A stretch of 64,000 bases of DNA from assembly GCA_033220425.1 (NCBI GenBank), contig CM065652.1, forward strand, positions 682,001 to 746,000, read 5' to 3'. The notes beneath the pieces are model-generated. The model was not told where the DNA came from. It saw only the letters and a program-made list of their open reading frames with translations, and made no database searches. The DNA comes from Lepraria neglecta. Lineage: Eukaryota; Ascomycota; Lecanoromycetes; Lecanorales; Stereocaulaceae. Positions 2,139-4,554 of this stretch are shown in pieces. Within the stretch, counting starts at the first letter, position 1; the number at the start of each line of letters is the position of its first letter. The position numbers and the translations under genes are program-made.

Positions 2139-2955
2139 TTAGACCATCATGTCAACATCGTCAAGGCCACGCTTGCCAGTTGAACATCCCATACCTGGGT
2201 TAATGCAGCCGTTATGGTGGGGGATCATTTGAGCGGCGCGTTTGGCTATCATGCTGACGTTGTCGAGGCCACGCTTGCCAGTTGAACATCCCATACCCGG
2301 GTTACTGCAGCCGTTATGGTGGGGCACCCCTCGAGGGTCGCGCTTGAGAAACTCCTGTGGTTCCTCAGCCATGATTTCAGCAATGGCTTCAGCAGCGCGC
2401 TTGAGCCTATGGCAGTCTCCTGCGTCACGGTAGCAGAAGGCGTTGGCTTCAGCTTCTGTAGAACGATAAGTTGGTCACACGTTTCATCAAAGGACATAGA
2501 TGAGACAGAGGGATCAACTTACCAGCCTCAGGATCAGGAAAAGCGAGCGCTTCGGCATCCGCAAGAGCTTCCGCAGCAGCGAGAGCGTCACGCTTGGCAG
2601 TTCCACATCCCTCACCGGGGCGATTGCAGGCGTTGTGTGCGGCAGTAGGATCAGCCTCGGCGAAGGCAACCGCGACAGCTTCGGCGAGTGCGAGAGCCTC
2701 ACGCTTGGCACTCGAACAGGCTCCGCCTGAACGGTAGCAGAAGCGGGATTGGGGTTCTACGAATGCGATTGGCTCGGACAGAGCTTCGGCGCAAGCGTCG
2801 GCAGCGCGCCTCAGCTTATGGCAAGGTTGTGCTGAACGGTAGCAGAATTGAAGTTCGGCTTCGGCGACTGCTGCAGGCACTGGGTTTGCGATTGCGGCTG
2901 CCTTGAGTGAGGCGACTGCGAGGAGTGCGGTGTAGATGATGTTCGTGGTCTTCAT
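2139..2955 (-). CDS. Alpha-type mating pheromone precursor with six C-X6-C peptides
   Basis: Two exons, complement(2523..2955, 2139..2455), with a 67-nt intron (GTAAGT...CTACAG); 249 residues. A secretion signal covers about residues 1-24. Six cysteine pairs follow at 38/45, 73/80, 110/117, 152/159, 194/201 and 228/235, each with exactly six residues between, as in alpha-factor-like pheromones of Pezizomycotina (WC-X6-C type). Three units are class A (FCYR at 37, 72, 151) and three are class B (CxxPGxGC, e.g. CNRPGEGC). Most units end in a Kex2 site (KR at 84, 121, 163, 205, 239; RR at 49) and spacers are rich in EA/DA dipeptides as for Ste13 trimming. The phrase KLRRAADACAEAL closely resembles Neurospora ccg-4 and Fusarium precursors. 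Expected role: secreted ligand for a Ste2-type receptor. The usual Trp is replaced by Phe or a small residue. Family assignment is firm; which peptides are active is inference. Confidence 0.88.
2160..2327 (-). repeat. Two near-identical coding repeats in the pheromone gene
   Basis: Two copies of about 65 bp (2160-2225 and 2262-2327), offset by 102 bp (34 codons), with about four mismatches. They encode the last two class B peptides (HHNGCxNPGMGCSTGKRGL). The in-frame offset and near identity point to recent duplication or gene conversion inside the gene. Confidence 0.85.
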
Positions 2956-3167: not shown

Positions 3168-3357
3168 ATCTTTATAAGATGTTGACAATAAGGCGGTATA
3201 TGAAGATATCTAGAGCTCCAATCAGGTCCCACTGGTGAAGAGTTGTCAATAAAGGAAGGCTATTGACAAGCGCGTGGTGATGGCCACATGGGGTACCCAA
3301 AATGGGTGTCAATAGATTTGTCAATAACGCTTCCGGGAAATCCGAGATTCGTCAATA
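3168..3357 (-). promoter_or_regulatory. Pheromone promoter: TATA-like box and TGTCAATA cluster
   Basis: Upstream of the pheromone ATG (2955) lies a CT/CA-rich leader, then TTATAAAG on the minus strand (3170-3177), then a cluster of an 8-bp motif: TGTCAATA at 3244, 3307 and 3319, its reverse complement TATTGACA at 3261, and a 7-base match (GTCAATA) at 3351. Another exact copy sits at 3798, with a 7-base match at 3733. Five exact or near copies in 115 bp is far above chance. It is probably an activator site; mating-type or Ste12-pathway control is inference. Confidence 0.6.
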
Positions 3358-4554
3358 ACATTGTCTGCAGTGACGATGACATGGAACAATGACGACAAAA
3401 GAGCAGCACATAAGATTCAAGTAGGATGTTTTGTGAACTACAAGAGTCCTTGTGGCCATGAAGCCATCGGAGCAGTCCTTGCAAGGATTATTGTTGCTCA
3501 GTCCTCAGTGCCTTGGAGAGGGTGCCTCCCACGGACTGGCATCCCTTGAAGTACATTCCTGAACACTATAGAGCAATCAGATTGATTGCCAAAGAATAAG
3601 CCACGGGCGCCGTGCCAAAGACAGGAAAGTAGATATGCCCTCGGACTTGGTTTACCTCCCACGTATTATGACGCACCACACGATCAAGGCGTGCCATCCT
3701 TGATCATTCTTTGTGCCTCTGTCAATTTCTTCTATTGACTGGCAATATGATCAGGGGTAGCTTGCGTGAAGCATTTGTGACGTTGAGCAAGTTAGGTTAT
3801 TGACACCCAAATCCGGCAACGCCAAGCTATCAACTTGACAAAATCTTTAAAGCCGACCGAACGGCAGAACCGCGAGTTTCGTGGCCAGAACAGCACATGT
3901 CAAAATATGACAGAAATAGAAGAGGCTTCTTTGGATGCCCAATGCTTCTTTGGATGGGGCTTCAAGACACGTGCAAGCCGTCTGGCTCTGCCTCGGACTG
4001 TGTTGTGTGTTCTGAACCTTCTAGTTTTGGCACAGCGTACAGAGCCCAGCCTAGGCTCGAGCTCCATATTAGGTGAATGTCGTAATCAATAGGATTGGCC
4101 TGAAGACGCAGAAAGAACACGCGGCTGCCTTACCTGAACCACTGAAGATCAAATACCTCCAATGCTAGAACTATATTTTAAGGCTCCTGCGACTTATGAT
4201 GACGCTTATGACAGTAGTCTAAATCTTCGAAACCTCGCTGAGAGAAATCTGTATGACAATTATAGGGACAGTCTCGATAGAAATAAACAGGACGAATGCA
4301 GTCGCTCAACCACTCGACGTGCATGCATGCATAACTCATGCGCGCATATCTCAGTCTGCCAAGCCGTACATCTCAGCACTGGCTTGGCGCAAGCTCATAC
4401 AGGACTCATCAATATATTCTATATTATTCAAACCTCATAGAGAGCTTCTTCTTCTCCCTGACAATTTCTGTCACCTTGGCACCAACTCCACCACCTCGGA
4501 ACTTCCTACGTTCATTAATATCATTACCTCCTCGATCGCTCTACGGCAGTCACG
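3358..4554. other. Long intergenic stretch
   Basis: No protein-like frame is supported. It holds outlying copies of the TGTCAATA motif (3733, 3798) and, near the right end, the promoter and 5' leader of the isocitrate dehydrogenase gene. Short frames at 3835-4092 and 4162-4591 have no recognisable content. Confidence 0.5.

Follow-up and report, generated by a model that had tools for sequence, protein, structure and literature searches.

An alpha-pheromone precursor of Lepraria neglecta with two styles of C-X6-C peptide and a mosaic-like unit

The precursor gene and its six peptide units

The window, the whole stretch of 64,000 nucleotides of Lepraria neglecta DNA that was analysed, contains on its minus strand a gene for a precursor of 249 residues, encoded by two exons (2955..2523 and 2455..2139) according to translation and the gene model. 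Exon 1 (2523..2955) contributes a signal-peptide-like start and units 1 (class A), 2 (an A/B mosaic) and 3 (class B), and exon 2 (2139..2455) contributes units 4 (A), 5 (B) and 6 (B) and the stop codon. They are separated by a predicted intron of 67 nt (2456..2522, minus strand) with canonical sites, GTAAGT...CTACAG. The N-terminus, MKTTNIIYTALLAVASLKAAA, was read by eye as a basic start followed by a hydrophobic stretch. Following the predicted splicing, EAEAEANA lies immediately N-terminal of FCYR in unit 4, and if the intron is retained the frame stops at 2449 to give a product with units 1–3 only. The coding nature of exon 2 finds support, at the level of sequence, in a duplication of 102 nt which is in frame and in which the peptide core has been kept. 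The gene is single-copy, exon 1 matching its own genome at one place only with 100% identity. A Pfam scan of the precursor up to an E-value of 10 returned no family, MF_alpha and MF_alpha_N included, and a comparison with viral contigs gave no match. Adjoining the gene is an open frame of 270 codons on the plus strand (482-1291), also without a Pfam match. A gene of the isocitrate dehydrogenase family is another neighbour of the precursor gene.

All six C-X6-C peptides which the preliminary description assigned to a single precursor are located on the minus strand, and the translation reads in the order A-A-B-A-B-B as had been claimed. Unit coordinates run here from Cys to Cys, and the 9-mers quoted include one residue before the first Cys. 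Class A is represented by unit 1 (2821..2844; core CYRSAQPC, 9-mer FCYRSAQPC), followed by HKL-RR, and unit 4 (2412..2435; CYRDAGDC, FCYRDAGDC), followed by HRL-KR. Unit 2 (2716..2739; CYRSGGAC, FCYRSGGAC) joins an A-type front to the B-type tail SSA-KR. Class B comprises unit 3 (2605..2628; CNRPGEGC, ACNRPGEGC), followed by GTA-KR, together with unit 5 (2286..2309; CSNPGMGC, GCSNPGMGC) and unit 6 (2184..2207; CINPGMGC, GCINPGMGC), both followed by STG-KR. Kex2 sites had been ascribed to most units; the sites are present, and in 6/6 rather than in most, with KR or RR three residues past the second Cys. The Trp that usually flanks the first Cys is absent from every unit, as stated earlier, and in fact from the protein as a whole (0 in 249 aa). 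In residue shuffles of the precursor, at least six C-X6-C arrangements arose in 0 of 20000 cases, the maximum being 5.

Processing by a Ste13-like enzyme is suggested by in-frame runs of XA/XP dipeptides, which after the eight dibasic sites number 4, 10, 14, 3, 1, 0, 1 and 0 dipeptides. Only at units 3 and 4 do these runs reach the peptide, the run of 10 ending before AHNACNRPGEGCGTA (unit 3) and the run of 14 ending exactly before FCYRDAGDCHRL, at the FCYR of unit 4. The mature N-terminus of units 1, 2, 5 and 6 is not predictable with confidence from the sequence.

The two styles differ in the loop between the cysteines. Pro-Gly is found in 3/3 class B units, and Gly-Gln or Pro-Gly in 0/3 units of class A, so that overall one of these dipeptides occurs in 3/6 units, all of them B and always as PG. 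The loop of class A is different in each copy (SAQP, SGGA, DAGD), whereas that of class B is a constant PGxG. The FCYR of class A is encoded by 12/12 identical nucleotides across all three A units. Both exons hold both classes, exon 1 reading A, A, B and exon 2 reading A, B, B. Skipping of exon 2 in the transcript had been named as a refutation of the two classes; it would not be one, since A and B are both encoded in exon 1 and neither would be lost.

Repeat turnover and probable constraint

Units 5 and 6 arose when a segment of 102 nt was duplicated in tandem (2139-2240 and 2241-2342; together 2139..2342, minus strand), the two copies being 82% identical in alignment. From PHHNGC to GLD, the residue is changed in 1/21 core codons against 9/11 flanking codons (P 1.8e-5), a contrast whose border was set after the alignment had been seen and whose flanks exclude two upstream dibasic codons. 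If the border is instead placed at the two Cys, as fixed beforehand, the contrast is weaker: pN rises from 0.051 within the core to 0.207 beyond it, and pS is 0.222 within and 0.212 beyond. Over the whole KR-to-KR peptide this contrast is gone, pN (0.154) exceeding pS (0.105), and comparison of the older B copies, unit 3 with unit 5 or unit 6, gives no indication of constraint (pN 0.28, pS 0.17). As the duplication that produced units 5 and 6 kept the peptide core while the flanks diverged, class B is probably under constraint.

For class A, pN amounts to 0.19-0.29 in the cores, 0.42-0.79 in the upstream flanks and 0.24-0.44 downstream, with the pair of units 1 and 4 having a lower value downstream (0.24) than in the core (0.29). 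Class A may be constrained too, because its cores change fewer residues than the upstream flanks. Selection and recent conversion are inseparable for FCYR, because it is identical at every nucleotide in all three A units. The lost turn of class A fits the earlier suggestion that one class has been freed to evolve, but the FCYR part of the same class is invariant.

Unit 2 blurs the division further. In the five codons around its first Cys, it is identical to unit 1 at 15/15 nt, to unit 4 at 12/15 and to the B units at 5-8/15. Over the seven codons that start with the second Cys, the resemblance shifts to the B units (16/21 nt), against 8/21 for unit 1 and 11/21 for unit 4, these last two having in common a CH[K/R]L tail with 18/21 nt identical. 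The second Cys codon parallels this split between A front and B tail, being TGC in units 1 and 4 and TGT in units 2, 3, 5 and 6. A one-breakpoint mosaic test fits 9/10 scored sites, with 779/20000 shuffles as good, where the sites scored were 10 of 13 informative ones, the 3 showing neither state being excluded. A recombinant origin of unit 2 from A and B units is only suggestive on these nucleotide patterns. The clean two-class picture is nevertheless ruled out by this mosaic-like unit: the distinction drawn at the outset holds for units 1 and 4 as A and for units 3, 5 and 6 as B, but not for unit 2, in which an A front is combined with a B-like C-terminal half.

Mating genes and TATTGAC sites

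The genome comprises 42.0 Mb in 11 contigs. It contains one STE2 (PF02116, E 1.9e-85), represented by two adjacent matches that are read as exons of a single gene, and no second STE2-family gene was found. One STE3 match is present, reading through three stops which are taken as introns, as well as one kexin P-domain match (58/86 positions) reading through one stop, likewise taken as an intron. The MATalpha_HMGbox profile has no match in the genome and is silent in control genomes too. Among ten HMG-box matches genome-wide, two (C1:925080 and 925223), counted as a single gene, sit in a MAT-type locus with the order I/LWEQ, HMG box, endonuclease (Exo_endo_phos/GRF pair) and COX6A, in which the GRF and COX6A matches fall below Pfam cut-offs. 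From their domains and order, we take genes of this locus to be SLA2, MAT1-2-1 and APN2. Between the SLA2-like and HMG genes lies a frame of 184 codons (L044, C1:920001-930000, at 3755-4309 on the minus strand), without a Pfam match. Because the locus shows the classical MAT arrangement, MAT1-2 is the probable type of the sequenced strain, and such a strain would be expected to sense alpha-pheromone rather than make it.

Upstream of the precursor gene, a motif count finds seven TATTGAC sites on either strand (3245..3804; first bases 3245, 3261, 3308, 3320, 3351, 3733 and 3798), which are proposed as MAT1-1-1 boxes. Seven sites in the 1045 nt upstream compare with 15 in the remaining 62,955 nt of the window (Poisson P 9e-9), the motif having first been spotted by eye and tested afterwards. 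In a scan of the window in 242 overlapping tiles, 231 of which had some 7-mer at least three times, TATTGAC is the most enriched 7-mer (1.2e-8); AAACATC, also of the pheromone promoter, comes close behind (1.8e-8), and values of about 1e-7 are attained in tiles elsewhere. A TATAAA-like stretch on the minus strand (3171-3178) lies between the start codon, from which it is ~215 nt distant, and the TATTGAC cluster.

The gene pre1 codes for a STE3-type receptor. In Penicillium chrysogenum, the MAT1-1-1 box is described as CTATTGAG, with ppg1 and the receptor gene pre1 among its targets, and in the same account the box alone failed to activate the tom1 promoter (PMC10512297). The exact CTATTGAG is absent from the precursor promoter of Lepraria neglecta, in which the TATTGAC sites end in C instead.

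Paired sites were followed through the genome. In 42 Mb, 19 places show the tandem pattern TATTGACN0-30TATTGAC, a modest excess over the 13 of the reversed-pattern control; two of the 19 are in the precursor promoter and one is upstream of STE3. This last pair, TATTGACCTATTGAC at C6:297592, precedes the start codon of STE3, assumed at L003:1453, by about 450 nt. The inverted arrangement TATTGAC..GTCAATA occurs at five places genome-wide (control 2), without a mating gene being recognised there, and GTCAATA..TATTGAC at six (control 0), one of the latter being in the precursor promoter; genome-wide, neither inverted arrangement is found at STE3. If the 27 non-promoter places were random, the chance of one falling within 1 kb before STE3 would be about 0.0006. 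The 1452 nt upstream of STE3 hold three TATTGAC sites (P 0.005), at L003:779, 995 and 1003 on contig C6, of which two form the tandem CTATTGACCTATTGAC, and these are candidate MAT1-1-1 boxes. Neither a pair nor a single site occurs in the 1.35 kb upstream of the STE2 match. Other clusters of 4-5 TATTGAC sites exist at C2:4582419-4583110 (L014/L030) and C5:3163680 (L018), and no mating gene was recognised by eye among the frames listed for L014, L018 and L021.

Classically, two genes are alpha-specific, that of the alpha-pheromone and STE3. Because sites occur at both of them, the pattern fits MAT1-1-1 control, and on the strength of these motifs the precursor is probably driven by MAT1-1-1. 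The identity proposed from the start, that of an alpha-pheromone precursor, is borne out by the Ste13-like runs before two units, the MAT-box-like cluster with its counterpart pair at STE3, the single STE2 and the single precursor, and the assignment of the gene to the alpha-pheromone of a filamentous ascomycete is well supported.

Reading of the two peptide styles

With Pezizomycotina precursors of the ppg1 / ccg-4 / MF1-1 type, the protein has in common a signal-peptide-like start, multiple C-X6-C units, KR/RR sites, Ste13-type XA/XP runs, single copy and MAT-box-like sites upstream; unlike them, it has no Trp at all, two styles plus a mosaic, and half of its units without GQ/PG. The precursor of Bretziella fagacearum is comparable, by description rather than by sequence, in that several dissimilar peptides derive from one precursor. 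One survey used here, PMC6339444, is presumably that of Le Marquer (2019). In it, variation among repeats is called frequent, citing earlier work, and two motif types are counted in 77/1193 Kex2-processed repeat proteins (PMC6339444); these resemble the present case in having more than one peptide type per precursor, a likeness of general class only. For the alpha-pheromone precursor of Br. fagacearum (Ceratocystidaceae), five unique peptides are reported (PMC13037118). Given such frequent variation, the five unique peptides and the 77/1193 proteins with two motif types, the contrast drawn initially with near-identical repeats elsewhere was overstated.

Further parallels are distributed over several groups. 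Two-Cys alpha-pheromones are noted in 13 non-Pleosporales dothideomycetes, and the repeat of Xylona heveae is given as RFCHLPGQGCSK (PMC6339444). In this motif as quoted, F replaces W before the first Cys, as in class A, PGxGC is present, as in class B, and there is no terminal Trp; it differs in uniting in one repeat both features that in Lepraria neglecta are split between A and B units. In Leotiomycetes, the great majority of repeats are stated to contain GQ or PG; the first Trp is missing from repeats of the RCGHPGQPCG type, and in nine Sclerotiniaceae the one precursor also bears further, unique repeats (PMC10569646). The running text of the open-access articles, as far as it was accessible, yielded no description of two styles with an intermediate, all without Trp, and no pheromone sequence is given in PMC4227064 or PMC8905617. 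Since precursors whose repeats are unlike or lack Trp have been published, the gene is an unusual variant and not a new kind, unlike repeats and Trp loss each being known separately.

The account preferred here, and considered rather probable as a whole, is that of a single alpha-pheromone gene under MAT1-1-1 control, with repeat turnover and with class B as the likelier main agonist. In MAT1-1 cells, judging by the sites, the alpha-domain factor MAT1-1-1 would bind the TATTGAC boxes and switch on both the precursor gene and STE3. The precursor would then enter the secretory pathway, where Kex2 would be expected to cleave after KR/RR, a Kex1-like enzyme to trim the basic residues and a Ste13-like enzyme to remove the XA/XP dipeptides, and processing may thereby release up to six linear C-X6-C peptides. 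The repeats appear to evolve by birth, death and recombination, as shown by the tandem duplication of units 5 and 6 and suggested by the mosaic unit 2. The single STE2 of MAT1-2 cells would have to read whatever peptides are released. Class B, with its Pro-Gly turn and a conserved core in the youngest pair, is the likelier main agonist, and class A, in which FCYR is kept and Gly-Gln/Pro-Gly is missing, may be a diverged variant whose activity is weaker or altered, which is the least certain part of the account. D-alanine replacement of the central Gly-Gln in Fusarium oxysporum is reported to show that the turn is crucial for receptor-dependent responses (PMC7289986, citing Vitale et al. 2017). 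B is preferred as the main Ste2 ligand because of this reported role of the turn in Fusarium and the presence of GQ/PG in the great majority of Leotiomycetes repeats, class A having neither dipeptide.

Two other readings are next in probability. It is conceivable, somewhat short of an even chance, that the peptides of either class are full agonists of one and the same Ste2, their difference being neutral and only the Cys spacing and a loose turn being of importance. The genome has one STE2, C-X6-C and the dibasic sites are kept in both classes, and varied repeats within one precursor are described as common in print. Measured against five published 9-residue cores, unit 1 of class A and units 3, 5 and 6 of class B are similarly near (3-5/9), but units 2 (3-4/9) and 4 (2-3/9) score lower, and the A units have neither Gly-Gln nor Pro-Gly, the Gly-Gln turn being reported as crucial for receptor-dependent responses in Fusarium (PMC7289986).

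The second, as probable as the first, regards one class as the pheromone and the other as a decaying remnant of repeat turnover, secreted and without receptor activity. The variable loop of class A beside the retained PGxG of class B, the conserved core of units 5 and 6 and the recombinant look of unit 2 are all consistent with decay. It sits less easily with the 12/12 identical nucleotides of FCYR in three A units, although these have no synonymous differences and may reflect recent conversion, and with the position of the longest Ste13-type run of all, which precedes unit 4, an A unit.

That the transcript encodes two distinct signals, with B mating via Ste2 and A acting as a second signal, an antagonist or a ligand of another receptor, is doubtful. 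Two recognisable classes with three copies each extend over both exons with dibasic sites present, and a Ste2-independent effect on growth is reported for the Fusarium alpha-pheromone (PMC7289986), but mosaic unit 2 suggests exchange between the classes, blurring separate selection, and the genome search revealed no second STE2-family gene. An unlikely elaboration would have a single transcript yield a turn-containing B agonist together with a turn-less A peptide serving as modulator, antagonist or species-specificity peptide, A and B being complementary halves of an ancestral RFCxxPGxGC-like peptide and unit 2 a recombinant intermediate.

A RiPP precursor (dikaritin-type cyclic peptide) is rejected as very improbable: the general build (signal peptide, repeats, Kex2 sites) is alike and Tyr is present in the A repeats, but none of 42 UstYa (DUF3328) matches genome-wide lies within 1.3 Mb on C7 (nearest C7:2,046,544; gene C7:684,142), no UstYa match occurs among those ORFs of the window that were scanned (28 of the 71 with 130 aa or more), and the Ste13-type runs and the promoter motif common to STE3 point toward mating. 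Among 216 putative fungal pheromones, 98.6% are reported to have no UstYa gene nearby, and among all repeat proteins 22.3% to have one (PMC7329392); the absence of UstYa alone is weak evidence, because only this 22.3% of all repeat proteins has one nearby. The UstYa matches are partly arranged in small groups (e.g. C2:3.98 Mb, C5:0.52 Mb and C10:0.1 Mb), possible dikaritin-type clusters elsewhere in the genome.

The promoter sites of the precursor and the CTATTGAC pair upstream of STE3 constitute a candidate MAT1-1-1 box outside Penicillium. If A and B peptides both act through the one Ste2, this receptor can do without the Gly-Gln/Pro-Gly turn and the flanking Trp, and the view of which ligand features are essential would be revised. 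If only one class acts, the gene shows the birth, recombination and decay of pheromone repeats within a single precursor. Either way, six natural ligand variants and their own receptor make specificity testable in yeast, and the two peptide styles with their hybrid provide a natural test of whether one receptor reads two versions of a signal.
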